From Acidimicrobiales bacterium mtb01 (GTDB lineage: Bacteria > Actinomycetota > Acidimicrobiia > Acidimicrobiales > Ilumatobacteraceae): 64,000 nucleotides of DNA. The notes beneath the pieces are model-generated. The model was not told the origin of the DNA and searched no databases. It worked only from the letters and a program-made list of their open reading frames with translations. The position numbers were made by a program, and so were the translations under genes. Shown here piece by piece: positions 5,879-63,502 of the stretch. Positions within the stretch are counted from its first letter, which is position 1, and every line of letters starts with the position of its first letter. Location: contig NBNI01000006.1 of NCBI GenBank assembly GCA_004379135.1, positions 62,001-126,000 of the forward strand. The letters run 5' to 3'.

Positions 5879-5936
5879 CACGGCATCCCCGAGCGAAAAC
5901 CACCCGACACGGCGCGTGGTGCGACATGATGGTTCC

Positions 5937-6515: not shown

Positions 6516-6522
6516 GCGCGAA

Positions 6523-48031: not shown

Positions 48032-48719
48032 AGAAGTCGAGCATCGCGCGCCACGAACGTTCGTCGGAGGGCGCGTGATACCTGATTCCGGGACGACCGA
48101 TAAGATCGGCGTTCCTGTTGGTGAACGAGTGCTCGGCGCCGCCGAACACGTACAGGCGCCAGTCGCATCCCGCCACCATCATCTCGGCTTCGAACGCGTT
48201 GCGTTGTTCGACCGCGATCATCGGGTCGTCGGCACCGATGCAAACAAGAACCTTCGCGCTGATCTGCCCCGGCGCGGCGGGTTTCGACGTGCCGAGTCCG
48301 GAATGGAACCCGACCACGGCGGCCAGGTCGACACCATCGCGCGCCAACTCGAGCGACATCGTCCCACCGAAGCAATAACCGATCGATGCCACACGTTTGG
48401 CGTCGACCCTCGGGTGAGCGAGCAATTGCTCGAGGCCGGCCTTGGCTCGCTTGCGCGTTTCATCCGGCGACTGGATGAGAGCGACGAGCTTGGGCATCAT
48501 CTCGTCGAACGGCACCGGCTTGCCCCCACCGTGATAGTCGAGGGCGAACGCGACATAGCCGAGGTCCGCGAGACGGTCGGCCCTCATTTTCGCATGGTCA
48601 TCGAGTCCTGGGCCTTCGTGGCACACGAGAACCCCCGGTGCACTGCCGGATCCGGTCGGTTCGGCCAAGTAGCCGATGTACTCGGCCCCGTCGATCGCGT
48701 ACGAGACATTGCGTCCCAT
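48015..48719 (-). CDS. Dienelactone hydrolase family protein
   Basis: A 234-residue DLH-family hydrolase. The Cys nucleophile is in SIGYCFGGTMSLELA, the acid in IGADDPM and the His in GGAEHSFTN. The ATG at 48719 is chosen because AGGGGGAG lies just upstream. The earlier in-frame ATG at 48758 falls inside a repeated palindrome that also occurs elsewhere, so the first 13 codons would be repeat sequence. It lies downstream of the acyl-CoA synthetase on the same strand. Substrate unknown; it is only a distant relative of the DLH at 43141. Confidence 0.86.
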   Translation of the reverse strand: MGRNVSYAIDGAEYIGYLAEPTGSGSAPGVLVCHEGPGLDDHAKMRADRLADLGYVAFALDYHGGGKPVPFDEMMPKLVALIQSPDETRKRAKAGLEQLLAHPRVDAKRVASIGYCFGGTMSLELARDGVDLAAVVGFHSGLGTSKPAAPGQISAKVLVCIGADDPMIAVEQRNAFEAEMMVAGCDWRLYVFGGAEHSFTNRNADLIGRPGIRYHAPSDERSWRAMLDFFSEVF

Positions 48720-48744
48720 GTTCGCTCCCCCTCCGTTGGTTTCC

Positions 48745-48789
48745 TGGGCGTCAGACATGCCAGAAATGGCATGGTTCCGCGCCCAAGGG
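48745..48789 (-). repeat. Stop-adjacent palindromic repeat, copy 1
   Basis: Reading on the minus strand, 45 bp follow immediately after the acyl-CoA synthetase TAA: CCCTTGGGCGCGGAACCATG, then the core GCCATTTCTGGC and a closing GCCCA. It is identical to 61496-61540 except for one base. An inner palindrome ATGCCA-TTTC-TGGCAT and outer GGGCG/CGCCC arms allow a strong hairpin, consistent with a terminator. Confidence 0.92.
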
Positions 48790-50511
48790 TTATTCGCCGA
48801 CGAGTTCCTTGCGGAGTTCGCGCTTCAGGAACTTGCCGCTCGCGTTGCGCGGAATCGGCTCGCTCCGGAACCACAGCTTCGACGGAATCTTGTAGCTCGC
48901 CAACGACTGCTTCAGGAACGCGCGCAGTTCGTCCTCGCCCACCGACTTGCCCGGCTGCAGCACGATGCACGCCGCGACTTCTTCACCGAGACGCTCGTCG
49001 GGAATTCCGAACACGGCCGCCTCGGCGATCGCGTCGTGACGGTAGATCGCGGTCTCGACTTCCGAGCAGTACACGTTCTCGCCGCCGCGGATGACCATGT
49101 CCTTGGCGCGGTCGACGATGTAGATGAATCCGTCGGCGTCGATGCGCGCGATGTCACCGGTGTTGAGCCAGCCGTCCTTGATGGTCTCGGCGGTGGCCTC
49201 CGGACGATTGAGGTAGCCCTTGATGGTGATCGCACCCTTCACGCACAAGATGCCGGTGATGGCCGGATCGCGCGGAAGGTCGCGACCCTCTTCGTCGACC
49301 AACTTGACCTCGAGAGTGGGAACGGCCGGGCCGCACGACTCGGGCTTGCTCGTGTACCAGAGCGACGTGTTGGCGGTGATGATGCCGTGAGTCTCGGTCA
49401 TGCCATAGCCCGTGGTGGGCGTGCCGTGCTCGAGTTCCTTGTCGATCTTCTCCACCAGGTCGGGCTGCACCGCTGCACCGCCACCCGAGATGGCGGCGAG
49501 CGACGACGTGTCGCGCTTCTTCCAATCGGGGTGCAGGAGCAACTCACGGCCCATGGTGGGCACACCCGAGAAGTTGGTGCACTTCTCGCGCTCGATGAGT
49601 TCGAGGGCGCGACCCGGATCCCACTTGTACATGAGGACGAGCGTGCCGCCCACGAGGGTGGCCGGATGCAGGATGCAGTTGCACGCCGTCACGTGGAAGA
49701 GCGGAGTGGGCGCCATGAAGACCGGCGGCAGGGCCGGCGGAGCCGGCGGCGCCTGCTTGAGCGCGCCTGCCGCCACGGCCTTGGAGATGCCAGCGGTGGC
49801 CGCGCCGGTCATGGACGCGATGTTCATGACGTTGATGACCGAGCCGCGGTGATGCAACTGCGCACCCTTCGGGAAACCAGTGGTTCCCGATGTGTAGAAG
49901 ATGGTGGCGTCGTCATCGGGGTCGATGTCGGCCGGCGGGAGCGAACCCGGATCGGCCGCGGCCATGATGTCGGTCCAGCGGGCGCCACCGGCGGGCAGCG
50001 CGCGATCGGTGCGCACCGACACCACGTGCATGGCCGGCGGGTTGGCGATCTGACTCAACCGATCGAGACGCTCGTCGTCGACGACGAGCACCTTGGGCTT
50101 GCTGTCGTTGAGCGCGTACTCCATCTCGGTGGGCGTCCACCACGCGTTCATGCCGACGGCCGCGGCGCCGAGCGAGACGGTGGCCCAGTAGCCCACGACC
50201 CACTCGGGATAGTTGCGCATGGAGAGGGCGACGCGATCGCCGCGTTGCACACCCTGGCTCACGAGGTAGTGCGCGAGCTTGCGCACCTGCGCGTGGATCT
50301 CGTTGTAGGTGTACGACTCGTCCTCGTAGACCAAGTACTTCTTGTCGCCGTGGGCCGCAGTGAGCTCCCAGATGAAGCGCATATTGGGCGGTGCGGCGGC
50401 AAAGGTCTTGACCTCCACTCCACGGACTGTGACGGTCGTGACCTCGAAAGGAGATCCGGGACCCTCGATTTCTTTACGGGCGGCGATGTAGTGCTCGATC
50501 ACGGGATACAT
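48790..50511 (-). CDS. Acyl-CoA synthetase (AMP-forming)
   Basis: A 573-residue ANL-superfamily ligase. The P-loop YTSGTTGFPKGA, the GYGMTETHG motif, the hinge DRAKDMVIRGGENVY and the catalytic Lys region PRNASGKFLKREL are all intact. It activates a carboxylic acid with ATP and attaches it to CoA; the type suggests fatty or bulky hydrophobic acids, but the chain is unknown. The region following its stop is a palindromic repeat. It sits on the same strand as a dienelactone hydrolase (downstream) and an acyltransferase (upstream). Confidence 0.92.
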   Translation of the reverse strand: MYPVIEHYIAARKEIEGPGSPFEVTTVTVRGVEVKTFAAAPPNMRFIWELTAAHGDKKYLVYEDESYTYNEIHAQVRKLAHYLVSQGVQRGDRVALSMRNYPEWVVGYWATVSLGAAAVGMNAWWTPTEMEYALNDSKPKVLVVDDERLDRLSQIANPPAMHVVSVRTDRALPAGGARWTDIMAAADPGSLPPADIDPDDDATIFYTSGTTGFPKGAQLHHRGSVINVMNIASMTGAATAGISKAVAAGALKQAPPAPPALPPVFMAPTPLFHVTACNCILHPATLVGGTLVLMYKWDPGRALELIEREKCTNFSGVPTMGRELLLHPDWKKRDTSSLAAISGGGAAVQPDLVEKIDKELEHGTPTTGYGMTETHGIITANTSLWYTSKPESCGPAVPTLEVKLVDEEGRDLPRDPAITGILCVKGAITIKGYLNRPEATAETIKDGWLNTGDIARIDADGFIYIVDRAKDMVIRGGENVYCSEVETAIYRHDAIAEAAVFGIPDERLGEEVAACIVLQPGKSVGEDELRAFLKQSLASYKIPSKLWFRSEPIPRNASGKFLKRELRKELVGE

Positions 50512-50565
50512 CGTGGCCGTTCGACCTCACCCCTGGCAACGTGAGGCCCCCGATTGTCCGCATAT

Positions 50566-50606
50566 TGGGCGCGAAACCATGCCAAAAATGGCATGTTCCT
50601 CGCCCA
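50566..50606 (-). repeat. Stop-adjacent palindromic repeat, copy 2
   Basis: A diverged copy of the element at 48745 and 61496, one base after the stop of the OafA-like gene. It keeps GGGCG and CGCCC ends and the core GCCATTTTTGGCATG, with CGAGGAAC in place of CGCGGAACC on one arm. It lies between the acyltransferase stop and the acyl-CoA synthetase start, and could terminate the first transcript. Confidence 0.85.
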
Positions 50607-50607
50607 G

Positions 50608-52554
50608 TCAGCCCCGAGGCACAGGAATCCGGAGCAACTGATCGGCGATCGTCTCGAAAATCAGTTTCGAACCCCGGCTATACACGTGGACGCCGTCGTA
50701 GCGGTAAGAGAGATCGGTCGCGATCGGCGAGTCGGAGCACCACTCGTCGGGTCCGTCCACGAAGTGCACTCCCGACGGGTACGTCGCGACGATCCGTCGC
50801 ATCAGGTCGTTGAGGTGCGCTCCCCCGGCATCGTTGGCGCGTTCGGCCATCGGGTCGTCCCAACTTTCCACCGGACGGAAGCAAGGAATCTCGAGCAGTG
50901 CCACCGCCACACCCCTGAACAGCAACGTGTCGATCGCCAACCGCAACTGCCGTTCGAAGATTCGGTCGGCGGTCACCGTGCCCACCGGGAGGAGCATCCC
51001 ATCGATCTTCAGATCGAGGAGTTCCCACGCCCCCAGCACCACGAGTGCGATCTGGGCATCGTTCTTGTCGATCGCTCGTATCCATCGTTTGGTGAATCCG
51101 GCGCATCCGTCGAACGGGCGTCGGAATTTGCCGTCATTGGCCCAGCCCACACCTTCCTCGTACACGCCGCAACCCTGGATCGATCCGTTGGTCAGATCGA
51201 AGAAGGCTTCGATGCCGTCGGGTCGATTCACCCACAACGCGTAGGCCTGCGAGTCGCCCACGATCGCCACCCGTCGCGGCAGCGGCGGCAGAGGAGCCAC
51301 GGTCGTGGTGGTGGACGAAACGACGATGCTCGACGCCGGCGCAACGGTCGAAGGAGCCGACGGCGACGCGGGTAATTCGAACACCTCGTCACCGCTGGTA
51401 TCGACGACGACGTTTCGCGCCTCGGTACGCATGACCGCGACCGACGAGGCGATGAGCAGAGCAGTCACGCCCAATGACACTCCCGCAACCACCCGCCGAT
51501 CGAGTCGTCGCCATGCACTCCACCAATCGGCTTTGCGCGCTGGTGTTTCGACGAATCGATAGACGGTTTCGTTCACCACCACGGTGACCAACGAAGCGAG
51601 CAGCAACCGCGGCAACGAATCGCGAGCATCGAAGAACACGAACAGCGGCCAATGCCAGAGGTACAGCCCGTACGAACGCCGACCGATCTCGGCCAGCGGC
51701 CGCCACGCGAAGACTCGGGCCACTCGCCCCTCGGCCATGCCGGCGGCGATGAGCGCCGCGCTGGCCAACGTGGCTGCGACCAACCCGCCGCGATACAGAC
51801 CGATCGAGTTGACCTGCTGCGTTGCGAAGAGCCCCACGAGAGTTGCCGCACCCACCACGCCGACGGCATCCGACCAACGACCCAACAGAGATGGCCGGCG
51901 ATGCCACCACCACGCGAGCGCCGCCCCCACGAGCAGACCCGACGAGCGCGACAACGTGCCCAGGTACAGCCAGTTGATACGGAACCCGTCGCCTTCACGA
52001 ACCCACAGGGCCGTGAACACCATCACCGCAGCCGCAGCCACACTGCACGCGACTCCGATCGACACCCGACGTCGCAGCAACCATGCGGCAACGATCGGCC
52101 ACACCAGATACCACTGCTCTTCGACGGCGAGCGACCACAGGTGGCGCAACACCGGCAGCACCGAGGCCGCGAAGTAGGGCTGGTCGATTCCGTACACCTG
52201 CCACCAGTTCGACACGTAGAACAACGACGGCAACACGTCGCGTCGGAAGTCGGGGCCCGACTCGGTGCGCACGAACGCCGACACCACGAGCACCGCCGAC
52301 AACATCACGAACAAAGCCGGCAGCAATCGCCGTGCCCGTCGCAACCAGAACTGGCGCAGGTCCACCGCACCGGTGCCCACGTGTTCGGCGAGCAGCAAGG
52401 CAGTGATGAGGAATCCGCTGACCACGAAGAACACCTCGACACCGAGGAAGCCACCCGGAATCCAGGTGAGGCCGGCGTGATACAAGATGACGGCGATCAC
52501 GCTCAGCGCGCGAAGACCGTCGAGGGACGGCCGATAGCCGAGGCGCCCGGTCAT
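50608..52554 (-). CDS. OafA/YrhL-type acyltransferase with C-terminal SGNH domain
   Basis: A 648-residue protein. The N-terminal acyltransferase-3 domain has the opening YRPSLDGLRALSVIAVILYH with the catalytic His, then RLLPALFVMLSAVL and about ten transmembrane helices. After residue 400 comes a Ser/Thr-rich linker and an extracytoplasmic SGNH domain with VAIVGDSQA and a C-terminal DGVH. Such proteins move acetyl or acyl groups across the membrane onto cell-wall polysaccharides or glycolipids. The ATG is at 52554. Acceptor unknown. Confidence 0.9.
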   Translation of the reverse strand: MTGRLGYRPSLDGLRALSVIAVILYHAGLTWIPGGFLGVEVFFVVSGFLITALLLAEHVGTGAVDLRQFWLRRARRLLPALFVMLSAVLVVSAFVRTESGPDFRRDVLPSLFYVSNWWQVYGIDQPYFAASVLPVLRHLWSLAVEEQWYLVWPIVAAWLLRRRVSIGVACSVAAAAVMVFTALWVREGDGFRINWLYLGTLSRSSGLLVGAALAWWWHRRPSLLGRWSDAVGVVGAATLVGLFATQQVNSIGLYRGGLVAATLASAALIAAGMAEGRVARVFAWRPLAEIGRRSYGLYLWHWPLFVFFDARDSLPRLLLASLVTVVVNETVYRFVETPARKADWWSAWRRLDRRVVAGVSLGVTALLIASSVAVMRTEARNVVVDTSGDEVFELPASPSAPSTVAPASSIVVSSTTTTVAPLPPLPRRVAIVGDSQAYALWVNRPDGIEAFFDLTNGSIQGCGVYEEGVGWANDGKFRRPFDGCAGFTKRWIRAIDKNDAQIALVVLGAWELLDLKIDGMLLPVGTVTADRIFERQLRLAIDTLLFRGVAVALLEIPCFRPVESWDDPMAERANDAGGAHLNDLMRRIVATYPSGVHFVDGPDEWCSDSPIATDLSYRYDGVHVYSRGSKLIFETIADQLLRIPVPRG

Positions 52555-52568
52555 CGGACGGCGATCGA

Positions 52569-53027
52569 TCAGTTGACGGCGGCCTTGGCCAGGTTGTCGA
52601 GAGTGACTTCCATGTTGGCGCGATTGTGCGATGCACGATCAGCCACTCCGCTCACGACCTTGCCGAGGCGCGACATGAACTTGCTCCGGCGATCGATCCA
52701 GGAGTGGGTCACGCGCGAACCGGTGGCCGTGGGTTCGACTTCGTACACCCAGTCGCACCAACTGCGACTTCCGACCATCAACGCGAAGGCGAACTTGCGC
52801 GGCGCATCGAACTCGATGACCTTCACCTTGGTGGACCACGACCGCTTGCCGTTGGAGTTACGACCCTTGAACTCGACGCCCACGGCCGGACCGGCGGCGC
52901 CGTTCAGCCACTCGCCACCCTGATTCTCGGGCGACCACTCGCCCATGCGCGGCAAGTCGGTCACGAGCGACCACACCTTGTCGACTGGTGCGGTGATGTC
53001 ACGGACGACGGAAACGGGCTGTGTCAT
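52569..53027 (-). CDS. SRPBCC (START-like) family protein
   Basis: A 152-residue protein. VVRDITAPVDKVWSLVTDLP and GEWSPENQGGEW match the polyketide-cyclase/START-like superfamily; a long C-terminal helix ends the fold. It likely binds a hydrophobic ligand. The ATG at 53027 is used; an upstream ATG at 53045 adds six residues. It ends 14 bp before the acyltransferase start, and follows the nuclease operon by 30 bp on the same strand. Confidence 0.78.
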   Translation of the reverse strand: MTQPVSVVRDITAPVDKVWSLVTDLPRMGEWSPENQGGEWLNGAAGPAVGVEFKGRNSNGKRSWSTKVKVIEFDAPRKFAFALMVGSRSWCDWVYEVEPTATGSRVTHSWIDRRSKFMSRLGKVVSGVADRASHNRANMEVTLDNLAKAAVN

Positions 53028-53057
53028 GTCGTCAGTCTGGCACATGCGCCCAGGCGC

Positions 53058-54752
53058 TCAGCCCGTGAGCGTTTCGACCGACTCGAGGTTCCAGCCGCGT
53101 CCGTGCACGCCATCGTGCAGCCATCGACGCAGATCGCGCGTGGCCAGAACGTCGTCAGCGTTGTAGCGCAGCAATTTGGCTCCCATCACCCCACGATCAG
53201 GATTGGTGGGATCGCAGGCCGCGCGATACCAGATGATGGAGTTCGCGCCGCTCGCGTCGTCGGCGTCCCACGCGAATCCAGACATCGGCGCCAACGCCTT
53301 GAGCCCCAACGTGCGCGAGGGCCAGTGCAACTGCTTGGCGATCTCGTGCATGTCGACCCACCAGTCGTGCGACGGAAGAGCACCGATCTCGTCGACCGAC
53401 GGAACGCCGGCAACGTGAGCATTGCGCGCGGAGGCTTCCTTCATGCGTGGGATCTCGGCGAAACCACCCGAGTAGCAGTACACCGCGACCGTGCGACCGG
53501 CGGCGTGGGCGCCAGCAACGGTGGCATGCAGCCAGCCCCAGAAGCCGGCCAGCAACCTCCCCTCGGCCGCGGCGTCGGAACGGTCGTACGTGTGGAACGA
53601 CAGGTACTCGCCGTCGGTCCAGGTGTGTTCGTCGATGCGCTCGGACACATGCAGCCCATACATGTAGACGATGTCGTCGTTCTCGATGTCGAAGTCGATC
53701 TCGATGTCGGCCCGCGGAACCACGAAACCCGCGGCACCGCGCTTGAAGTACGGACGACCATCGTCGCGCAGATAGACGCGCGCGGCGTCGATGTTGGCGC
53801 CTAGAGCCGCGTACTTGGGAACCGGGTTGGCGTCGACGTTCACCGGGTCGAGCGCCGCCAATTGCGGAATGGTCTCGATGCCGCCTTCGGCCAACTTGCG
53901 CACCTGGATGACACCCACACCCGACACGAGCGACACGTGGCCCTCGGCGATGAGTTCGCTCTCGCATACGTCGTGCCAGCGGCACTTCTTGCATTCGTCG
54001 CGATACACCGGACGCGTGTGGCGCTCTTCGCCATTGCGCATCGCGTCGATGGCGGCCCAGCGTTCGTCCCAGGCCGCCTGCGCCTCGGCGATGAAACTGT
54101 TCTTGCCGTCGTCGAGAAGACGCCACACCACTCGCTTGTCGGAGGCGATGGTGGCACCGATCGGGTCGATGGTCGGCGCGTGGCCCAGATCGCGGAGGAT
54201 GAGCCAGTAGTGCGCGAGTTGCAGCGAGTGATCGGTCTTGGCCTTGCCGTTGCCGAGATCGGTGGCCGTGGCATCGTCGAGCCACGGCGCGTCGATCGCC
54301 CCCACCATCCAGACCTTGGCCTTCGAGTCGCCCTCGAGCGGTTTGGAGTTCTTCACGTCGACCGGCAGATACGCCCACTTGCCGTTGCTCATGGGCGCGT
54401 CGCCGTGGCGCACCAGCACATCGGGACGCCCGCCTCGGTGATCGACGATCGGCAGCGACGCACCGATGATCACCTTGTCGCCGCGCGCCATCGCCTGCAA
54501 GGTGGCCGCTTCGGGGTCGTCGGAGAGCCGCATGGACGACACCTTGTGCAGCCGAGCCAACTCGAGGAAGACCTCGTCCTCGAATTCGAGACCTTCGTCG
54601 AACATTCTCTGCTGCTGATCGTCGACGGGCAGCAGCGCCAAACCGTCGTAGCGGGGGTTGCGATCGTTCACTTCGCGATGCGAGCAGCCCACGATGAACC
54701 GCGAGCCGCCCACGTCGCCGACGCGCGGGGAGGATTCAGACAACGAGATCAC
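53058..54752 (-). CDS. TM0106-type Fe-S RecB-like nuclease with C-terminal DEDD exonuclease domain
   Basis: A 564-residue protein with two nuclease-like parts. Residues 15-270 are a RecB/Cas4-like PD-(D/E)xK fold: C23, the FE-type helix around 54-58 (GLEFE), D111, the D132-V-K134 catalytic pair, Q178-x3-Y182, and C254, C257 and C263, which with C23 form an Fe-S clamp. Residues 360-560 resemble an RNase-H-like (DEDD) exonuclease: IDFDIE as the first acidic motif and RYNADDVLATRDL as the last. It overlaps the helicase gene by 17 bp and starts with GTG. Role as DNA end-processing nuclease is inferred. Confidence 0.85.
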   Translation of the reverse strand: MISLSESSPRVGDVGGSRFIVGCSHREVNDRNPRYDGLALLPVDDQQQRMFDEGLEFEDEVFLELARLHKVSSMRLSDDPEAATLQAMARGDKVIIGASLPIVDHRGGRPDVLVRHGDAPMSNGKWAYLPVDVKNSKPLEGDSKAKVWMVGAIDAPWLDDATATDLGNGKAKTDHSLQLAHYWLILRDLGHAPTIDPIGATIASDKRVVWRLLDDGKNSFIAEAQAAWDERWAAIDAMRNGEERHTRPVYRDECKKCRWHDVCESELIAEGHVSLVSGVGVIQVRKLAEGGIETIPQLAALDPVNVDANPVPKYAALGANIDAARVYLRDDGRPYFKRGAAGFVVPRADIEIDFDIENDDIVYMYGLHVSERIDEHTWTDGEYLSFHTYDRSDAAAEGRLLAGFWGWLHATVAGAHAAGRTVAVYCYSGGFAEIPRMKEASARNAHVAGVPSVDEIGALPSHDWWVDMHEIAKQLHWPSRTLGLKALAPMSGFAWDADDASGANSIIWYRAACDPTNPDRGVMGAKLLRYNADDVLATRDLRRWLHDGVHGRGWNLESVETLTG

Positions 54753-56043
54753 GCTCCTCGTGATACTTCCAGAACGCGGTGTGCTGGGCGTGACCCCGGC
54801 CGACGATGTCGTGGCATCCGAGCGCCTGGTCGGCGGCCGGCAGATGCGAATCGAGCGTGCGACCCACGTTGTCGCGCGTGACGAAGAAGCAGGCCGAACG
54901 GTGGCGCGACGCCATCACGCACAGGCGGCCGGTCTCGAGATCGAAGGACGACGGCGTGGCGATCCCCGACAGCGGATGCACCGCGATCATGACCGGACGC
55001 TGCAGACCCTGCCAACGCTCGGGTGTGGTGACCCGAACGCCACGGCGTCCGCGCAACTCGGCCGGAAGCGCGTTCTCGATGGCTGTGTTCATGAGGTTGT
55101 GCGTCGACACGATGCCGATGTCGGACGCCTGTAGCACTGGCGGATCGGCGGGATGCTGTTCGTCAGCGGAGTAGACGCAACCGAGTTCGAGCAGCCGAAC
55201 CGCCAGTGCCGCCACGATCTCGGCCAGTTCGGAATCGGGTTCGGCCACCGACTCGGCGGACACCGACGGATGCGTGAGCACGACGGTGGACGACTCGGAC
55301 AGCCGTGCGATGGCGCGGTCGGAGGGCCGCGACGCATCGAGCGCACCGACCGGACGCAGGAAGCGCTCCCCCGGCCGGGCGTGCGCCGTGAACGTGAAGT
55401 CGTAGAACGTGCGCACCAACGACACCGAATCGTGCGGCAGACGCCAGCAAGTGTCGAGTTCGAGAACGGTGGTGATGTCGCGCAGTTCGGCGTTGCGCAA
55501 AATCACGTCGGGAGCCGGCCGGTGCGGCGCAACCGGCGAAACCTCCCAGCGATCGACGTCGATCGCGACCACCGGCGGGATCTGACCCGGATCGCCGATG
55601 AGCACGTAGCGTGGCGACACGTCGCGCATGGTGAGCAGATCGGCCCACGTCATCTGCCAGGCCTCGTCGACGAACAGCACGTGGTACGGCAGTTCGAACT
55701 TGCTGATTGCCAACTTGGCGACGGTGGCCACCACGATCGACGGGCCACTCGGCAGTTGGTCGGTCTTGTTGACGATCTCGACGTTGGCCGCGATCGTTCC
55801 GTCGTAGGTGCCCGACGAGAAGCGCACCACATGGGTCGTGGGGTATTCGCGCGCGATCTCGGCGCACAGATCGTCGACCTGGTTGTTGGTCTGGGCCGCG
55901 ACCATCACGCGGTACTGCGAGCCGACCACCGCGGCGAGCGTTTTGACGAGGTTGTACGACTTGCCCGAACCGGGTGGCGCCTTCACGACGCACAGCCGAT
56001 CGTCGCCGCGCAGAAACTCCTGGAGCTTGGTGACGACACTCAC
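54736..56043 (-). CDS. SF1 DNA2/UPF1-type helicase core
   Basis: A compact 435-residue SF1 motor. Motif I is PPGSGKS (23-29), motif II VDEA (125-128), motif III GDPGQIPPV (150-158), the arginine of motif IV is in CWRLP (R201), motif V is PERWQGLQRPVMIAV (341-355) and motif VI is VMASRHRSACFF (376-387). The family is DNA2/NAM7/UPF1, not UvrD. It lacks the usual long N-terminal beta-barrel and any nuclease domain, which the two upstream genes may supply. It starts with GTG in a GTGA overlap. Expected 5'-3' translocase on DNA or RNA; substrate not tested. Confidence 0.88.
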   Translation of the reverse strand: MSVVTKLQEFLRGDDRLCVVKAPPGSGKSYNLVKTLAAVVGSQYRVMVAAQTNNQVDDLCAEIAREYPTTHVVRFSSGTYDGTIAANVEIVNKTDQLPSGPSIVVATVAKLAISKFELPYHVLFVDEAWQMTWADLLTMRDVSPRYVLIGDPGQIPPVVAIDVDRWEVSPVAPHRPAPDVILRNAELRDITTVLELDTCWRLPHDSVSLVRTFYDFTFTAHARPGERFLRPVGALDASRPSDRAIARLSESSTVVLTHPSVSAESVAEPDSELAEIVAALAVRLLELGCVYSADEQHPADPPVLQASDIGIVSTHNLMNTAIENALPAELRGRRGVRVTTPERWQGLQRPVMIAVHPLSGIATPSSFDLETGRLCVMASRHRSACFFVTRDNVGRTLDSHLPAADQALGCHDIVGRGHAQHTAFWKYHEERDLVV

Positions 56044-57527
56044 GATTCGGCCTCCACCGATTCGAACACGGCACCGTCGTCGTCGAAAGCGGCGTGACGC
56101 GGCCGCGGCGCGACGAGCAGTGACGTGATGTCGCCGTCGATCGCCTTGTTCGCCATGGCGACGCGATTGCGCATGATCCCGGTGGGCGGATCGAACAGCA
56201 GCACCAGTTGGGCGCCTCGCCACTTCGAGTCGTCGGGCTCCCAGGTGAATGCACCACCGCCCTTCTTCGGGCGCTTCCAACCGGGCGCCAGAGTCATGGT
56301 GCGCTCGTCGAGGTCGACATCGGTGACGCGCAACGACATGGTGGGACGACCCGCGATGGCCAGCACCCGACCCGGTTCGATCGTGGTGAGTTCGGGGTAC
56401 GTGTACGCGATCATCCATTCGTCTTCGGAGTTGGCCGTCACACGCGCAACGACTCCGCGACCCCGCGCGAGTTCTTCTCGCTGCAGCTCGCGATCTCCGT
56501 GCATGAGCGCCACTTGCGAGATCTCGTGATCGGCGACCCTCGACTGATACGAACCGCTCGCGCCGCGCGCGTTGTGATCGGTGAAGACGTTCGGCCAGAA
56601 CTGATCGATGCCGGCCGCCTCGTTGACGACCCGATTGCCCCAGGCATGGAAGAACCCCTTCGCGCTGCCGGTGACCAGATCGGCCAGACCCGGATTCGCG
56701 CCCCGAGGGTCGCGGCGCAATTCGGCCACCGCTGTCGCCGTGAGCTTCCATCGGCGCGTCAACTCGGTGTGCAACGCCGCGTCGATGCGCCGAGCGGTGT
56801 CGTCCGAACGCGACTCGCCCCACTCGGCCACCAACGACGCCAGTTCGCGCCGTTCGACTTCGGGGTCGAGCACCGTCGACACCGAGTTGCGTTCGGCTTC
56901 GTGCGCCGCGCGCAGACGGTCGTCACGTGTGCGACCACCACGCATCCACCCGAGCAAGTGCCCGAGGTGGGCTTGACGGATGGGCGCCGTCGGGAAGACG
57001 TAGGCCGAGCGCAGGGCATCGACCGCCGACATCACCACCTGCTGACCCGGACGCTGCGCTTCGATGAAGAGCGCGTTGCACAGATTGCCGAGGGCGTTGA
57101 GCGTGTCGACATTCGGATGGTTCCACTTCGTGCGCGCGTACGCGGCGGCGATGAAGTGGAGCATCTCGAGATGCGACGGCCCGGGCAGCCAGATCTGGCG
57201 GAGCGACTGCGACTGATAACCGGCCGGCCCGTCGTCGTCGAACGCCGGATGGCGAAAGTGGGCCAGCAGGTGCGGTGCGACCACGACCATCATGTCGGCC
57301 ACCAGTTGGCGATTGCGGGCTTCGGGGACGGTGAACACCGTGGGCCCGTTGGCCAGGGTTCCGATGGCCACGCCCCACGGCCGCGACTCGCCGCCCATGC
57401 GAAGGAACGCCGCCACCAGCACGTCGTCGTCGGCACCCACGTGCACGTTGACGACCGATCCGCGCGGCGTCGGTGCACCTTCGTGCCAGGCGCGGATGCG
57501 GCGGATGGTCTCGAGGTCGTTGCTCAT
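56040..57527 (-). CDS. Unknown protein of the helicase-nuclease operon, possible beta-barrel C terminus
   Basis: A 495-residue protein with no family I recognise. The N-terminal 350 residues are mostly helical. From about residue 360 a beta-rich stretch (GVVARVTANSEDEWMIAYTY, PGRVLAIAGRP, MSLRVTDVDLDERTMTLAPG, GAQLVLLFDPP) looks like the beta-barrel that precedes the motor in DNA2/UPF1 helicases. The helicase gene starts right after it in a GTGA overlap, and the nuclease gene before it overlaps by 4 bp (ATGA). I infer it joins nuclease and motor; no catalytic motif is evident. Confidence 0.7.
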   Translation of the reverse strand: MSNDLETIRRIRAWHEGAPTPRGSVVNVHVGADDDVLVAAFLRMGGESRPWGVAIGTLANGPTVFTVPEARNRQLVADMMVVVAPHLLAHFRHPAFDDDGPAGYQSQSLRQIWLPGPSHLEMLHFIAAAYARTKWNHPNVDTLNALGNLCNALFIEAQRPGQQVVMSAVDALRSAYVFPTAPIRQAHLGHLLGWMRGGRTRDDRLRAAHEAERNSVSTVLDPEVERRELASLVAEWGESRSDDTARRIDAALHTELTRRWKLTATAVAELRRDPRGANPGLADLVTGSAKGFFHAWGNRVVNEAAGIDQFWPNVFTDHNARGASGSYQSRVADHEISQVALMHGDRELQREELARGRGVVARVTANSEDEWMIAYTYPELTTIEPGRVLAIAGRPTMSLRVTDVDLDERTMTLAPGWKRPKKGGGAFTWEPDDSKWRGAQLVLLFDPPTGIMRNRVAMANKAIDGDITSLLVAPRPRHAAFDDDGAVFESVEAES

Positions 57528-58597
57528 GGCAGCACCGGCAAACCGTCGGACAGGCGAACGAGCAGATCGTGTTCGGCGCGATTGGCCGGCCGCCCGCCGT
57601 CGAGCAGTTGAACGACGCGATCGAGAGTGACGCCGCCGAGGAATCGGCCGACGTCGTCGCCCAACGCGACACCGTGACCCTTGGCGAGGGCGTTCGCATG
57701 GCAGAAGTCGGCCCGCTCGCAGAACGACAGGCACGAATCCTGGAAGAAGGTGTCGGCGTGGCGGACCAGATCGAACAGCGACTCGGGATCGTCGTCGTCG
57801 CCGGCTCCGTAGGCACCGTTCATGAGTTGCGCCGAGTCCTCCATGAGTTCGAAGCCGCGACGCGCGCGTTCGAGTTGGTAGCGGAGATCTTCGCCGCTGC
57901 GCACGCTCGGCTGATTGGAACCCGGGTACGTGAGGACCAGAAATCCCTCGACCGACACGTCGACGGCCCGCGCGATTCCGAGACCGTCGAGCGTGACCTC
58001 GAGCGCGTGCACGTACAAACCCATCTGCGCGCGCGCCGCGGCCAGATCGGAGCGCGATGTATGGCCCCCCTGATCGGCGTAGGTCTTGATCTCGCCCACG
58101 GCGATGACGGGGCGTTCGCCGTGCGTCTGCACCGCGAGGACGTCGATGATGAGCAGCGCCTCGGGCAGCATGATGCCGCGCGGAATGCGCACCGTGAGGC
58201 TCGACACCGCGCCGTTGAACACGCGGCCCTCGGCCAACGATTTCAGGAACGCGTGACCAGCCTCGACGGCGGCGTCGAGATCGGCGAGAGTGCCGCCGTT
58301 GGCGGCGATGCGGTGATCGGCGAAGTCGGCCGACAGCGAGTCGATCACGTCGGCGCGTTGCAGTGCGGTGATGAGCAGGTCGCCCCCATCGCGCACCAGG
58401 CCGGCCTCGAACGAGTTGCCGCGGGCCAGCGCGAACACCGACTGCCCCTCGCGCGGGGCCTGGGGGTTCTCGCGCCGGGCGACCGCCCCCATCTTCACGT
58501 TGTGGACGGCCGAGATGACGTTGGCGTGGCACTGGGGGTTGCGGGCCCATTGCTCGAAGCGGCGGCGGGTCTCGCGTTTGGCTCTCTCGTTCTTCAT
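57524..58597 (-). CDS. Fe-S RecB/Cas4-like PD-(D/E)xK nuclease
   Basis: A 357-residue nuclease. RGNSFE (59-64) is the first family motif, D152 follows, E169-I-K171 is the catalytic pair, and Q191-x3-Y195 is the last motif. C23 together with C289, C293 and C299 match the four-cysteine Fe-S clamp of Cas4, AddB and Dna2 nucleases. The ATG at 58597 has AGGTGG close upstream. It is the first gene of a four-gene operon, and its stop overlaps the next ATG. No cas genes are near, so a CRISPR role is unlikely. Confidence 0.85.
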   Translation of the reverse strand: MKNERAKRETRRRFEQWARNPQCHANVISAVHNVKMGAVARRENPQAPREGQSVFALARGNSFEAGLVRDGGDLLITALQRADVIDSLSADFADHRIAANGGTLADLDAAVEAGHAFLKSLAEGRVFNGAVSSLTVRIPRGIMLPEALLIIDVLAVQTHGERPVIAVGEIKTYADQGGHTSRSDLAAARAQMGLYVHALEVTLDGLGIARAVDVSVEGFLVLTYPGSNQPSVRSGEDLRYQLERARRGFELMEDSAQLMNGAYGAGDDDDPESLFDLVRHADTFFQDSCLSFCERADFCHANALAKGHGVALGDDVGRFLGGVTLDRVVQLLDGGRPANRAEHDLLVRLSDGLPVLP

Positions 58598-58647
58598 CGC
58601 CACCTGAACGAAAGTACTACCGGGGTGTGTGCGCGCTCCCGGGGCCG

Positions 58648-59040
58648 CTAGGGCGTCAGTTCGGCCACCAGGGCCTCCACCCGCCCGCGGATCTCGTCGC
58701 GGATGCGCCGGGCCACGTCGGCCGACTGACCCTTCGGATCGTCGAGCGGCCAATCGATGTAACGCTTGCCCGGGACGTACGGGCAAGAGTCGCCACAACC
58801 CATCGTGACCACCACGTCGACGCGATGGAGCAGTTCGTCGGTGAACTTCTGCGGTGTGAAGCCGGCGATGTCGATTCCGACTTCGCGCATCACTTCCACC
58901 GCCGCCGGATTCACTTGATCAGCCGGTTCGGATCCACCGGAGAAAATGTCGACCCGGCCATCGCCGATCGCCCGCGCGAATCCGGCCGCCATCTGCGAGC
59001 GACCGGCATTGTGGATGCAGAGGAAGAGGATGCCGGGCAT
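58648..59040 (-). CDS. arsC: Arsenate reductase (low-molecular-weight phosphatase type)
   Basis: A 130-residue protein with the phosphatase-like arsenate loop C8-I-H-N-A-G-R14, redox cysteines C82 and C86, and WPLDDPKG, typical of LMW-PTP-type ArsC. It reduces arsenate to arsenite; the electron donor in actinobacteria is thioredoxin or mycothiol, not decidable here. The ATG shares a base with the stop of the aquaporin gene (TGATG). It is the last gene of the arsenic operon. Confidence 0.9.
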   Translation of the reverse strand: MPGILFLCIHNAGRSQMAAGFARAIGDGRVDIFSGGSEPADQVNPAAVEVMREVGIDIAGFTPQKFTDELLHRVDVVVTMGCGDSCPYVPGKRYIDWPLDDPKGQSADVARRIRDEIRGRVEALVAELTP

Positions 59041-59705
59041 CAGTCGCGGTGAGTGAAGAGAATCCGGCACAGACCGAACGCCACGACGCCGCCGATCAAT
59101 TGCATGACCGCGAACATCGGCCACGACTCCGGCGCGATGCCGGCGAACGAATCGGAGAATATGCGCCCGAAGCCGACGGCCGGGTTGGCGATGCTGGTGG
59201 ATGACGTGAACCAGTAGGCACCGGTGATCCAGGCCGCCACGAGCGCGGCCACGTTGGCCTTGGCCGCGATACCACCGCGGATGATGAGCAGCAGACCCAC
59301 CACCGCGACCGCTTCGGCGAACCACTTCGGTCCGCCGTCGCGAATCTTCGACGAGGTCTCGAACACCGGATGCTCGAACATCGCGTTGGCCATGAAACAA
59401 CCCACCGCCGCTCCGGCGAATTGCGCGACGATGTCAACGAGCAAGCGAACCGGATTCGAGTCGCGATCGAGAAAATGGCCGACGAGGGTGACGACCGGGT
59501 TGAACGACGCGCCGGAGATCGGGGCGAAGATCGTGATGAGGCCGAACAAGGCCCCGCCCGTCGCGATGGCGTTGGCAAGAAGCTGCACACCCACGTCGTC
59601 GGTGAGGTTGGTGGCCATGATGCCCGAACCGACCACGGCAATCACGAGAAGAGCCGTGCCGAGGAATTCGCTCAGAACGCGGCGCGCGGACAGGTTCAGC
59701 AGCAC
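59040..59705 (-). CDS. Aquaglyceroporin of the arsenic operon (AqpS-like)
   Basis: A 221-residue MIP-family channel. The two half-helix motifs are modified: the first reads GASFNPVVTL (NPV), and the second is SIANPAVGFGR (NPA). Six hydrophobic segments are present. In Sinorhizobium, AqpS in an ars operon lets arsenite made by ArsC leave the cell by diffusion. The GTG at 59705 overlaps the dioxygenase gene by 10 bp. No ArsB or Acr3 pump occurs in the window. Confidence 0.86.
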   Translation of the reverse strand: MLLNLSARRVLSEFLGTALLVIAVVGSGIMATNLTDDVGVQLLANAIATGGALFGLITIFAPISGASFNPVVTLVGHFLDRDSNPVRLLVDIVAQFAGAAVGCFMANAMFEHPVFETSSKIRDGGPKWFAEAVAVVGLLLIIRGGIAAKANVAALVAAWITGAYWFTSSTSIANPAVGFGRIFSDSFAGIAPESWPMFAVMQLIGGVVAFGLCRILFTHRD

Positions 59706-60160
59706 GTGTCGGGACCGCAGACGCTGCCGTTGGCTTCGACCATCAGGAGCGGCTTCTTGCGGAGGTTGATGGTCGTCGCGGCGAGCGACGTGTCGGCGGG
59801 TGCGTCCTCGAGGACCGTGTACCACTCCCACGGAACTTCGCCGGAGTTGATCCAGACCTTGTCTTGAACGGCGAAGCAGCAGGTCTCGCTCTCGTGCACC
59901 GAGATGTCGAAGCCCTGGGCGCGTGCGTCGTCGATCTTGGCCGCCACCTCGTCGGTGGATTCGAGTTCGACGCCCACGTGGTTCATCGTGCCGGGCTGGC
60001 CGTGGCCGGCGATGAGCACCAGCTTGAGGGGCGGGTTCGCGATCGCGAAGTTGGCGTAGCCGTCGCGCACCTTGGCCGGGCCGACCCCGAACATCCTGGT
60101 GTAGTGCTCGATCGCGGCGTCGAGGTCGCCCACGTTCAGGGCCAGTTGCACGCGTGCCAT
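59696..60160 (-). CDS. ArsI/CadI-type VOC dioxygenase (C-As lyase-like)
   Basis: A 154-residue VOC-fold protein. The vicinal pair C94-C95 binds trivalent organoarsenicals in known ArsI; metal-ligand positions are Q5, H61 and E112. A second Cys cluster (CGPDTCC) ends the protein. Known ArsI cleaves the carbon-arsenic bond of methylarsenite and roxarsone-type compounds, while CadI homologues answer to cadmium. AGGAGG lies just upstream of the ATG at 60160. First gene of the operon with aquaporin and ArsC. Confidence 0.88.
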   Translation of the reverse strand: MARVQLALNVGDLDAAIEHYTRMFGVGPAKVRDGYANFAIANPPLKLVLIAGHGQPGTMNHVGVELESTDEVAAKIDDARAQGFDISVHESETCCFAVQDKVWINSGEVPWEWYTVLEDAPADTSLAATTINLRKKPLLMVEANGSVCGPDTCC

Positions 60161-60280
60161 GTCGATTCCTCCTGGCCTTTCAGCATAGGAGTCCTCGTCC
60201 GGCGCCGAGCCGAGCCGTGGGTGAACTTTGGGTGACGACCAGCCAACCAATTCGCCTAACCTGGCATCCAGGGGGTTGCC

Positions 60281-61495
60281 ATGACCTACGGAAGCGAGCG
60301 AGTCGACTCGGAGCCGGTCAAGAGTTGGATCACCGACTGGGACTGGCTCGACGACGGTTGGGGCGAGAACGCCATCGACATCTGGAACGACGTGCGCGAG
60401 CAGTGTCCGGTGGCCAGCACCGAGCGGTACGGCCGCGCGTTCATGCCGGTGACCATGGAAGCCGTTCGACAGATCGCGAACGACACCGACAACTTCTCGT
60501 CCATCTGGGTCGGCGTGGCTCGACCCGACGCTCCACGACATCCCGCCCCGCCGATCACCAGCGACCCGCCCAATCATCACGGACATCGCCGACTCATCCT
60601 CCCGGCGTTCAATCCGAAGGCCGTCGCCTCCATCGAGCCCGAGATGCGCGCGTTCTGCCGCAAACTCATCGCCGACATCGGTGACTCGCCCACCGCCGAC
60701 GCTGCCGAGCAGTACAGCCAGCACATTCCGGTGCACGGCATCTGCATCATCACGGGTCTGCCCGAAGAGGACGCCGACTTGTTCCGCGACTGGATCTATC
60801 GAAGCTTCCAACTCGCACCCAAGGACAATGCGGTCCGGCATCAGGTTGCCGTCGAGATGACCGAGTACATCGACGCGCTGCTGAAGGATCGTCTGAAGAA
60901 TCCGAAGGACGACTTGTTGACGGTGGTGGCCAACGCCCAGATCGACGGCCAGGACGTCGACTGGATGGTGAAGGTCGGATACATCCGCCTGCAGATCGTG
61001 GCCGGCATCGACACCACCTGGAGCGCGATCGGTTCGGGTCTGTGGCACTTCGCCCAACACAACGACGAGGTGCAGCGACTGATCGCGGTTCCCAACGATC
61101 ACGACCTGTGGTCGGAGGCGACCGAGGAAGTCCTTCGCTATTACGCACCGGTCACGATGGCGCGCAAGGTCGTGAAGGACGTGACGGTTTCGGGTTGCCC
61201 GATGCACGCCGGCGATCAGACGCTCGTGACGTTCCCGGCCGCCAATCACGACCCGAACGAGTTCGAGCGCGCCGACGAGTTCATCCTCGACCGCAAGAAC
61301 AATCGGCACGTCGCGTTCGGTTTGGGAATCCACCGGTGCGCGGGGTCGAATCTGGCGCGACTGGAGATGATCGTCGCGTTCCAGGAATGGTTGCGCGCCT
61401 TCCCGAACTACTCGCTCGACCCGAGCACCAAGGTCACGTGGGCGAATGGTCAGGTCCGCGGCCCCCGCATCCTCCCCGTCCTCACGAACCCCTAA
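60281..61495 (+). CDS. Cytochrome P450
   Basis: A 404-residue soluble P450. Haem ligand C353 lies in FGLGIHRCAGSNLAR, the I-helix motif is AGIDTTWSAIG and the ExxR is EEVLR. It is similar to the P450 at 40870 but has no ferredoxin gene beside it. The ATG at 60281 is divergent from the arsI-type gene by 120 bp. A stop-adjacent palindrome follows immediately. Substrate unknown; the pair may be paralogues for different lipids. Confidence 0.92.
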   Translation: MTYGSERVDSEPVKSWITDWDWLDDGWGENAIDIWNDVREQCPVASTERYGRAFMPVTMEAVRQIANDTDNFSSIWVGVARPDAPRHPAPPITSDPPNHHGHRRLILPAFNPKAVASIEPEMRAFCRKLIADIGDSPTADAAEQYSQHIPVHGICIITGLPEEDADLFRDWIYRSFQLAPKDNAVRHQVAVEMTEYIDALLKDRLKNPKDDLLTVVANAQIDGQDVDWMVKVGYIRLQIVAGIDTTWSAIGSGLWHFAQHNDEVQRLIAVPNDHDLWSEATEEVLRYYAPVTMARKVVKDVTVSGCPMHAGDQTLVTFPAANHDPNEFERADEFILDRKNNRHVAFGLGIHRCAGSNLARLEMIVAFQEWLRAFPNYSLDPSTKVTWANGQVRGPRILPVLTNP

Positions 61496-61540
61496 CCCTT
61501 GGGCGCGAAACCATGCCATTTCTGGCATGTCTGACGCCCA
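61496..61540 (+). repeat. Stop-adjacent palindromic repeat, copy 3
   Basis: It begins on the base after the P450 TAA and differs at one base from the minus-strand copy at 48745-48789. The inner ATGCCA-TTTC-TGGCAT and outer GGGCG/CGCCC arms form a hairpin. It fills the gap between two convergent genes (next stop at 61545), so it can serve as a two-way terminator. Confidence 0.92.
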
Positions 61541-61544
61541 TGAA

Positions 61545-62300
61545 TCAGCCCGCGACGGTGTTGAAGCGGACTCCGCCGATCGTGACGGCCTGATCGTCGA
61601 TCGGAAGGCCGCGTTCGCGCGCCCGTCGCAGCACCTCGGCCGAGTCGCGTACCACGATGTCGACCGCGTCGAGGCCTTCGCCCCGCGGACCGGCCGGTAC
61701 GAAGCGCACGCAGAAGTCGACTGGGCGCACCTTGTGCATGCCGCAGTTGCGTCCGATGGTGACCGGCAGATCCATGAGCCGCCCCCACCGCGCCGACACC
61801 GCCTCGGGATCGACGCAGCCCACGTCGGCCTGACCCAGTCGCATCGCGACCGACGTGTCGACGGCAGCGCGCCACGTGGGGCCGGCCGGATGCCAATCGC
61901 CCGGAGGCGTCTGCTCGTCGATCTCGACGAACGTGCCGCCGGTGTCGGCGGGATGCAGTTGCATGTCGATGAAACCAGGTGCTCCGTAGTCAGCGACGAT
62001 GCGAATGCCCATCTCGTCGACACGCGCTCGGTGTGCTCCGAAATCGTCGGTCTGGAAGATGAGCATGTATCCGCCGTCGCCGTCACGCTTGGCGAGGTAG
62101 CGCTCGGCGGTCGTGTTGTCGGTGATGGGCGCAACCACCTCGAGGAACTGATCGCCCACCGGGATGACCGCGTTGTGCAAGCCGAGCCGGTGGATGTGCG
62201 GGTCGTTGTACCCCACGCGCAGCCCGAACACCGCGCACAGATCGTCGACCACCGCATCGCGGTCGCGAGCCACGAGGCAGATCTGACGCAAGCGGATCAC
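61545..62300 (-). CDS. VOC (glyoxalase-fold) family protein
   Basis: A 251-residue protein with two VOC-like halves: RLRQICLVARDRDAVVDDLC at the start and a second, degenerate module after residue 125 (GQADVGCVDPEAVSARWGRL). Metal ligands are not clear. The start is GTG at 62300, giving IRLRQICLVA; upstream ATGs would run into the divergent promoter. Function unknown; such proteins include dioxygenases, isomerases and binding proteins. Confidence 0.75.
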   Translation of the reverse strand: MIRLRQICLVARDRDAVVDDLCAVFGLRVGYNDPHIHRLGLHNAVIPVGDQFLEVVAPITDNTTAERYLAKRDGDGGYMLIFQTDDFGAHRARVDEMGIRIVADYGAPGFIDMQLHPADTGGTFVEIDEQTPPGDWHPAGPTWRAAVDTSVAMRLGQADVGCVDPEAVSARWGRLMDLPVTIGRNCGMHKVRPVDFCVRFVPAGPRGEGLDAVDIVVRDSAEVLRRARERGLPIDDQAVTIGGVRFNTVAG

Positions 62301-62368
62301 CCGCCCAGTATGGCCCGGTTCACGCGCCCACTGGGAGGCCTGACGACCCACCGACATACGCTCGCGGC

Positions 62369-63460
62369 ATGCCGATGATTCCCGAGCAGATCGCCAACAT
62401 CACCACCGAGTGGCTGAACGAGGTCCTCGCCACCAACCCCGCGGTGGGACGCATCGCAAACTTCCGTGCCGAACGACTCGGCGAAGGCGTCGGCATCCTC
62501 GGCGAACTCGCGCGGCTCCACCTCACCTACGCCCCCGGCGAATCGGGCCCGGCGACGATGATCGCCAAGTGCCAATCGCCGGCACCCGAGAATCGCTTCC
62601 TCGGTGAGGTGATGGGGTTCTACTTGCGCGAGGTCAACTTCTACAAAGAAGTCGCCACGTCACTCGACATCCGCGTGCCGCTTCCGTACCACGCCGACTC
62701 CGGCGCCAACGGTCTGCCGTTCATCCTTCTCATCGAGGAGATCGTCGGCGCGCGCTGCCCCGACCAGATCACCGGCATCACCATCGATGAGACGCGGCGG
62801 ATCATCGACGTCATCGCGCAATTGCATGTGCGTTTCTGGGATTCGCCCGACCTCGAGACCATGACGTGGCTCCCGCCCATGAACAACCCGCTCTACAAGT
62901 CGGGCCGCGACATGGCCCTGGCGCGCCTCCCCGAGTTCAAACAGAAGTTCGCCGATCGCGTATCACCGGAGTTCATGGACGTGATCGAACGCGCGTGCAA
63001 CGAGTATCCGAACCTGCTCGATCATCTGGCCGCGCTCGACCACCTCACGTTCACACACACCGACTGCCGCGCCGAGAACTACCTGTTCGGCGGATCGGCC
63101 GGCACCGACACCGTCACCATGATCGACTTCCAACTCTCCACTCGGCACATGGGTCCGTGGGACGTGGCCAATCTCGTGACCGGGTCGCTATCGCCCGAGG
63201 TGCGCCGCACCTGTGAGATGGACCTGCTGCGCCACTACTACGACCGCGTGGTCGCACTCGGCGTGAAGAACTACTCGTTCGAACGCTGCTACCTCGATTA
63301 CAAGCGCAGCCTGCTGCAGTTGTGCACGGCTCAGGTGATCACGAGCGATCTGCAAGGCGGAAACGAGCGCGGAACGATTCTGTTGGAAAACCTGCATATT
63401 CGGCCCGTTCTCGCCGCCGAGGAGCACGGCGTGGGCGAGCTTCTCGACGAATTCTGCTGA
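62369..63460 (+). CDS. Kinase-like phosphotransferase (EcKinase/APH fold)
   Basis: A 363-residue APH-fold protein. The catalytic loop is THTDCRAENYLF (H-x-D...N) and the metal motif is MIDFQLSTRHMGPWDVANL. The family resembles the CHK/EcKinase group that includes ecdysteroid and other sterol or small-alcohol kinases. It is divergent from the VOC gene by 68 bp. An antibiotic-resistance role is unlikely. Substrate unknown. Confidence 0.78.
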   Translation: MPMIPEQIANITTEWLNEVLATNPAVGRIANFRAERLGEGVGILGELARLHLTYAPGESGPATMIAKCQSPAPENRFLGEVMGFYLREVNFYKEVATSLDIRVPLPYHADSGANGLPFILLIEEIVGARCPDQITGITIDETRRIIDVIAQLHVRFWDSPDLETMTWLPPMNNPLYKSGRDMALARLPEFKQKFADRVSPEFMDVIERACNEYPNLLDHLAALDHLTFTHTDCRAENYLFGGSAGTDTVTMIDFQLSTRHMGPWDVANLVTGSLSPEVRRTCEMDLLRHYYDRVVALGVKNYSFERCYLDYKRSLLQLCTAQVITSDLQGGNERGTILLENLHIRPVLAAEEHGVGELLDEFC

Positions 63461-63502
63461 CACCGGTCACAGCGCGAACACCCGACCGACTTTCGTCATT
63501 GA

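Follow-up and report, generated by a model that had tools for sequence, protein, structure and literature searches.

A conserved three-gene operon with the anatomy of a Bad/DNA2-like helicase-nuclease, and a lineage-specific fourth gene, in Acidimicrobiales bacterium mtb01

The operon and its four genes

We analyzed a 64,000-nucleotide (nt) stretch of Acidimicrobiales bacterium mtb01 (contig NBNI01000006.1, positions 62,001 to 126,000), referred to here as the window, in which four genes, g1 to g4, occupy positions 53058-58597 of the minus strand. The operon is transcribed in the order g1, g2, g3 and g4, from 58597 to 53058, with successive overlaps of 4, 4 and 17 nt. Its genes encode an iron-sulfur (Fe-S), or 'iron-staple', PD-(D/E)XK nuclease of 357 amino acids (aa) (g1, 57524-58597), a 495-aa middle subunit with a predicted helical N-terminal part and a beta-rich C-terminal domain (g2, 56040-57527), a 435-aa superfamily 1 (SF1) motor of the UPF1/DNA2 type (g3, 54736-56043) and a 564-aa Fe-S nuclease of the TM0106 family that also contains an RNase_H_2 (DEDD-type) domain (g4, 53058-54752). 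The first-pass annotation, a model's reading of the sequence alone, had given exactly this place, the size of g2 and these overlaps, and its descriptions of the single proteins were confirmed: the g1 motifs lie at the positions it named, g3 is a DNA2-type motor with all SF1 motifs, g4 is a second Fe-S nuclease carrying a DEDD exonuclease domain, and the beta-rich C terminus of g2 is backed by a structural model of moderate confidence. It had treated the four genes as one unit; however, the unit conserved among relatives consists of g1, g2 and g3 (hereafter, the triad), to which g4 is a lineage-specific addition.

The g1 motifs, invariant in a set of 15 sequences, were also examined in an alignment of 42. 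Here, the four cysteines (C23, C289, C293 and C299), D152 and Q191 are present in all 42 sequences, Y195 in 41, K171 in 39 and E169 in 38. The catalytic motif (D152, E169-K171 and Q191-Y195) is complete in the window copy and, together with the cysteines, identifies g1 as an iron-staple RecB-type nuclease. The exceptions to this conservation are three loci linked to pPIWI-RE genes and L101, a contig from IMG/VR (L and G numbers denote our loci and genomes, respectively). L101 presents, in this alignment, D in place of E169 and Q in place of Y195. In the three pPIWI-RE-linked sequences, which have a PprPDDEXK nuclease gene alongside, E169 is replaced by L, K171 by R and E64 by H, with all four cysteines kept. 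As these three variants are near-identical, they should be considered as one event; we read it as g1 having probably ceased to cut in a setting that provides a further nuclease. No Pfam, NCBIfam or PADLOC family matches g1, nor does TIGR03491 (TM0106), and the PDB profile search gave no meaningful match; the nuclease assignment thus rests on the motifs. In PADLOC-DB 2.0.0, no family was obtained for g1 or g2 of the window at E-values up to 1, or for those of L026 at 1e-3.

The best Pfam match of g3 is AAA_11 (1.9e-13), with AAA_30 and related models also matching and no UvrD model listed. Residues of the SF1 motifs are present in 40 of 40 aligned sequences, namely P24/G25/G27/K28 of the Walker A motif (APPGSGKS, 55957-55980, minus strand), D126/E127/A128/Q130, G150/D151/P152/Q154, R343/Q345/G346 and R380/H381. 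When a 15-sequence g3 profile was compared with the PDB, DNA2 was the best match (1.1e-15), followed by SMUBP-2 (9.5e-13), SEN1 (6.5e-9) and UPF1 (about 5e-8); when the window sequence was used by itself, 9kwf_B (2.8e-4) was the single match, and DNA2 was not reached at 0.01. Judged by these matches, g3 is classified as an SF1 motor of the UPF1/DNA2 group. Matches to PADLOC models (MkoA, MkoC, RecD-like and others) are partial and cover the ATPase parts. Motors of the UPF1/DNA2 group carry a barrel and a stalk just before motif I. Consistently, PMC11090510, which covers other UPF1/DNA2-like helicases, describes a stalk-like extension as characteristic of the family. In g3, motif I is preceded by about 20 residues, which leaves no room for a barrel and stalk, and g2 may therefore supply this part.

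No convincing family was found for g2. It has no Pfam, NCBIfam or PADLOC match, a Pfam scan of 14 members of its alignment up to E 10 returned only three implausible families, and a PDB profile search yielded nothing meaningful. Its conservation reaches Streptomyces and one IMG/VR contig. An AlphaFold2 (AF2) model of residues 342-491 obtained a mean predicted local distance difference test score (pLDDT) of 65.1 and a predicted template modeling score of 0.59, with the other four models at 38-56. At this moderate confidence, the C-terminal 150 residues are modeled as a helix, seven strands and a helix, with the barrel-like, seven-stranded part at residues 358-458 (56154-56456, minus strand). 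A model of whole g2 from three sequences was unusable (pLDDT 34.5), with very low confidence for the helical N-terminal part. Alignments including L101 placed this sequence badly and were left out of folding.

g4 matches TIGR03491 with 158.1 bits (3.6e-46), above the curated cut-off of 97.45, and is thus a member of the TM0106 family. Its RNase_H_2 domain (residues 355-545; 53118-53690, minus strand) is matched by Pfam at 4.8e-10. When 12 sequences were aligned, at least 11 agreed at C23/C254/C257/C263, D111, D132, K134, Q178, Y182, D353/D355/E357, D467 and D533/D534; the remaining one is a fragment of 116 residues that had been picked in error. No helicase is found within g4, which is a stand-alone kind of TM0106-family nuclease. 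Among 15 scanned loci with the best TM0106 matches in the phylum sample, 10 present the nuclease, an RNase_H_2 part and an SF1 helicase (GPPG-GKT motif) in one frame. In the window genus and the sister genus, 12 loci extend far enough to show which gene directly follows g3, and in all of them it is g4 (the window, L008, L009, L011, L102-L104, L106-L108, G870 and G863). Even with g4 itself as a query, it was not found beside the triads L012-L014, L017-L021, L025-L031 and L101, with L018-L021 being short stretches and L051-L065 not included in the g4 search, and a four-gene core was thus rejected.

Conservation and distribution of the triad

The first-pass annotation had proposed scoring how often the genes co-occur and searching homologues for fused versions. 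In 44 of the 45 g2-bearing loci that we read, g1, g2 and g3 are all present, on the same strand and in the same order. g1 and g2 overlap in 43 of 45 loci and g2 and g3 in 41 of 44, where it should be noted that gene starts were chosen by script and that the set includes near-identical copies (e.g., L058 and L059). The three genes are separate in all 45 loci, and no fusion was seen among the loci read. Co-occurrence thus holds when loci are anchored on g2, but not in four plasmid loci anchored on g3 (see below). L014 was kept outside the 45: its three genes are in the same order, its g2 (1304-2866) has two in-frame stops, and the neighboring UvrD-nuclease gene (4169-6913) is interrupted too.

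Between the window and Streptomyces or Nonomuraea, identity is 27-29% for g1, 17-21% for g2 and 33-35% for g3. The distance matrices of the three genes correlate with r of 0.97-0.99 over 40 loci, a value reached by none of 1000 permutations, as is expected of sequences inherited together.

Of 24 genomes of the window genus, 15 contain a g2 homologue; at the level of the order, 5 of 397 do so and, with a wider profile, 15 of 396 at that of the phylum, each count including the window's own genome. Two of seven matches in the order (G191 and G275; about 100 residues at 28-33% identity, with no g1 or g3 near) had been dropped as false. In one genus, inferred to be Streptomyces, 99 of 101 genomes contain g2, although in most of these only g2 was counted. 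Beyond these, g2 was found on two named Streptomyces plasmids, in Nonomuraea gerenzanensis and sporadically elsewhere. Five alignment scans of viral collections yielded one relative, L101, and two scans with the L101 proteins found only that contig; the phage record collection contained no match to g2 or to Streptomyces g3.

Within the window genus, the operon occupies two chromosomal sites (L102-L109 versus the window, L008 and L009), with PALP/cysteine-synthase-like neighbors versus low-molecular-weight-phosphatase-like and, by eye, aquaporin-like ones, and has thus moved within the genus. An empty-site comparison for the window locus was uninformative, as eight relatives have the polyketide-cyclase-like gene without the three other queried window neighbors within ~1.5 kb. 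In the part of the window that was searched for repeats (48000-64000), a ~42-52-nt element (81-96% alike) occurs at 48741-48792, 50565-50606 and 61493-61544, in direct and inverted orientation. It encloses a short palindrome (CATGCCA...TGGCATG) and looks like a dispersed element similar to repetitive extragenic palindromes.

Genomic settings and neighboring defense genes

Twelve second-copy loci in Streptomyces (10 genomes and 2 plasmids, with the two terminal copies of G811 counted once) carry an additional gene, g0, before g1. In these loci, g0 encodes ~275-290 aa, with no significant Pfam family in the members scanned. Overall, g0 precedes g1 in L051-L062, L064, L101 and Nonomuraea L017 (9920-10690) and was not seen in the window or in the Streptomyces core copies. 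Its products (~250-290 aa) present, by eye, a coiled coil followed by a winged-helix-like part, with an SLRRDEERS-like motif in actinobacterial members.

Divergently oriented SbcC/SbcD genes, whole or partial, adjoin nine of the 12 second copies; they are in pieces in plasmid L052, and in L059 only part of SbcD is seen. Wadjet genes adjoin L051, L052 and L058, and also L056, by JetA3. pPIWI-RE-type genes adjoin L053, L054 and L062, identified by PprPDDEXK in all three loci and by PprRE, as scanned in L053, the pPIWI protein itself not being among the scanned sequences. Hma genes are further found beside L062, a type III restriction pair beside L054 and a gene resembling a type IV enzyme beside L060. 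L055, L057, L059 and L061 show no clear system beyond SbcC/SbcD, with a long SMC-like gene in L059. At 1e-20, 110 PADLOC models were matched by 85 open reading frames (ORFs) around the twelve second copies and none by 76 ORFs around seven core copies; when referring to these numbers, one should consider that only 25 of the 110 models were listed, that many are redundant for one gene, that the set sizes differ and that the ORFs were called by script.

Defense genes are also found near triads of other groups. Type III restriction genes adjoin those of the order relatives L012-L014 and of L027, from another family of the phylum. Res is present in L012, L013 and L014 (and, by eye, in L027) and Mod in L013, L014 and L027, with no intact Mod frame read in L012. 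A convergent UvrD-PD-(D/E)XK gene lies between the triad and the type III genes in L012, L013 and L027, and also, judged by eye and in interrupted form, in L014. Genes for a cytosine methyltransferase and for a serine recombinase accompany g0, g1, g2 and g3 in L101.

A probable helicase-nuclease in three chains

The closest characterized protein that we found, absent from the first-pass annotation, is Bad (WP_053413574) of Geobacillus stearothermophilus, a rare single-chain bacterial DNA2-like enzyme. As described in PMC7430649, Bad is a 1245-aa chain, with the motif I lysine at 815, that leads from an iron-staple nuclease through a central, conserved domain of unknown kind to an SF1 helicase and acts as a 5'-3' helicase and single-stranded DNA (ssDNA) endonuclease. 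Its gene adjoins a type III methyltransferase, and its authors propose a novel restriction system (PMC7430649). The triad is alike in part order and length, as g1, g2 and g3 placed end to end comprise 1287 aa with the motif I lysine at 880, and, in three order relatives and L027, also in its type III neighbors. The two differ in that Bad is one chain and the triad three, and g2 may correspond to the central domain of Bad.

Eukaryotic DNA2 works with Mre11-Rad50. The order of nuclease, putative barrel and motor is shared with DNA2, which is the best PDB profile match of g3, and the DNA2/Mre11-Rad50 partnership may have a parallel in the SbcC/SbcD genes beside nine of the 12 second copies. DNA2 is, however, a single chain, and g2 far exceeds the size of a barrel. 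The first-pass annotation had likened the operon to a divided Dna2; of this comparison, the order of nuclease, barrel-like protein and motor and their tight coupling stand, but homology between the g2 and Dna2 barrels was not detected. Within the TM0106 nuclease-helicases (TIGR03491), g4 is a member without the helicase and g1 finds no match. AddAB, AdnAB and RecBCD also combine a nuclease with a motor on DNA ends, using UvrD-type motors with a fused nuclease. The triad shares the nuclease, the motor and the putative action on DNA ends with these enzymes, but g3 is of the AAA_11/AAA_12 type, with no nuclease fused to it, and no UvrD-PDDEXK_1 fusion is present. By anatomy, the triad is thus Bad/DNA2-like, but, with separate genes throughout the 45 loci, it is not a member of the single-chain families. 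Among the matches listed from open full-text literature, which covers neither most subscription papers nor bioRxiv, g1-g2-g3 and g0 are not named, and TM0106 returned only irrelevant papers. As far as the accessible text goes, the main text of the pPIWI-RE paper PMC3702460 mentions no Dna2, Cas4 or RecB, and PMC10482375 contains neither 'nuclease' nor 'helicase'.

On balance, we consider it probable that g1, g2 and g3 are subunits of one Bad/DNA2-like helicase-nuclease made as three chains. In such a complex, the C-terminal barrel of g2 and its flanking helices would supply the domain 1B and stalk that g3 lacks. g2 and g3 would together form a complete motor, which would load on ssDNA at an end or flap and move 5' to 3', while g1, its fold held by a 4Fe-4S cluster, would cut the strand fed to it. 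In the window lineage, g4 would contribute a DEDD exonuclease as well as another iron-staple nuclease. The complex would serve to process or destroy DNA ends. Core copies would do this alone, in repair or in clearing linear foreign DNA, and second copies would work with a defense system that makes or recognizes ends (Wadjet, type III restriction, pPIWI-RE or SbcCD).

Several observations weigh against this interpretation and need to be considered. The g2 barrel model was built from three sequences only. None of the Foldseek matches of the g2 C terminus reached E 0.001, and the matches listed by Foldseek and VIA-align are mostly small, closed, unrelated barrels (F1-ATPase beta N-domain, riboflavin synthase; Z of at most 5.4), which supports a predicted barrel but no particular relative. 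SF1 helicases are absent from the best 50 rows of each fold search, which excludes nothing, and no significant similarity emerged when the profile of the g2 C terminus was compared with the region that precedes motif I in TM0106 helicases (probability 1.1, E 0.049). L063 (G588) contains a g1-g2 pair with no g3 nearby, the next gene encoding a GGDEF-EAL protein. g3 is, moreover, found more widely than the triad. At 1e-5, window g3 finds matches in 75 plasmid records, TM0106-family proteins among them. In the four such loci that we read (L165-L168: Euzebya pacifica, Rhodococcus erythropolis, Mycobacterium avium and Pseudarthrobacter), g1 is absent throughout, and a significant g2 is present in one. 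This is the Euzebya plasmid, where a g2-like gene lies directly before g3 (hmmsearch 5.9e-11; hhalign probability 96; reversed control 0.12). The Rhodococcus and Mycobacterium plasmids have a 390-395-aa gene with weak collinear similarity to g2 (tested together: E 0.00096, probability 22; reversed control E 0.67), and neither g1 nor g2 lies beside g3 in Pseudarthrobacter. As a separate observation, AAA (MoxR-type) and VWA genes precede the possible g2-g3 in the Rhodococcus and Mycobacterium plasmids. As the Euzebya g2-like gene adjoins g3 without g1, this arrangement suggests that g2-g3 may be the motor core, to which g1 was added in the lineages that keep the triad. Both the Euzebya plasmid and L063 could also be taken to mean that the operon encodes three or four independent DNA enzymes that form no complex. 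We regard this as quite improbable, as gene order and overlaps persist despite large divergence and as the portion that related motors have ahead of motif I is missing from g3.

What the triad does in the cell is less easily decided. That it serves general DNA repair, as a housekeeping end-resection nuclease standing in for AddAB or AdnAB with the defense contexts being secondary recruitment, is a serious contender, to which we give somewhat less than an even chance. The near-universal presence of g2 in Streptomyces and the PADLOC-free surroundings of the seven core copies speak for it, as does the host nuclease background. In the window genome, the only frames with PDDEXK_1 measure 282 and 384 aa, and the only ones with UvrD helicases 750, 848 and 730 aa. 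PDDEXK_1 frames reach 445 aa at most in the genomes of ten further genus members and two sister-genus members, several of them incomplete, as compared with frames of at least 1,012 aa, some in close pairs as for AdnAB, in nine other genomes. The window genus thus seems, from these frame lengths, to lack AdnAB. However, long AdnAB-like frames are missing from triad-free members of the genus as well, so that the operon is neither a simple AdnAB replacement nor essential, and the two Streptomyces genomes checked have long PDDEXK_1 frames as well as the triad. The sporadic occurrence in the rest of the phylum also speaks against this role. If the triad were itself an effector of immunity wherever it occurs, the window included, its association with defense or restriction genes in the second copies, the three order relatives and one other phylum member would be explained, as would the methyltransferase and recombinase of L101. 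We consider this unlikely, since neither the core Streptomyces copies nor the window copy has PADLOC neighbors among the ORFs scanned: the nine neighbors scanned in the window match no PADLOC family at 1e-3. A link to defense, of which the first-pass annotation had suggested phage defense as one possible role, is thus seen for the Streptomyces second copies and several loci of other groups, and not among the nine scanned neighbors of the window copy.

A broader version of the three-chain interpretation is that g1-g2-g3, with g0 in mobile copies, form an undescribed, exchangeable engine for destroying DNA ends that is attached to many immune systems (Wadjet, type III, pPIWI-RE and type IV), in which the SbcCD pairing would be the bacterial counterpart of Mre11-Rad50 and DNA2, and in which the g1 active site decays to a structural piece where another nuclease is at hand, as with pPIWI-RE. 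We put this forward tentatively, as rather doubtful. In the g3 tree, the three pPIWI-RE loci are near-identical and most SbcCD/Wadjet loci form one clade, so that the independent defense-context events may perhaps number four to six. In addition, PMC10482375 describes Wadjet as common among Actinobacteria, with an enrichment at the ends of Streptomyces chromosomes. Location at chromosome ends, where some second copies lie, may therefore explain part of the Wadjet association. The presence of g3 without g1 and this chromosome-end enrichment slightly lowered our confidence in both the three-chain and the exchangeable-engine interpretations.

Should the three-chain interpretation be true, bacteria would possess a DNA2-like machine of several subunits, which would reveal the points at which a motor of this kind can be divided into chains. 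The natural g1 variants that are free of catalytic residues would serve as ready-made cases of separated function, and the fate of DNA after cutting by Wadjet or restriction enzymes would become testable. The interpretation would also provide a function for genes found in nearly every Streptomyces genome, the counterparts of which are named in two annotated plasmid records as 'hypothetical protein', 'hypothetical protein' and 'AAA family ATPase' or 'AAA domain-containing protein'.

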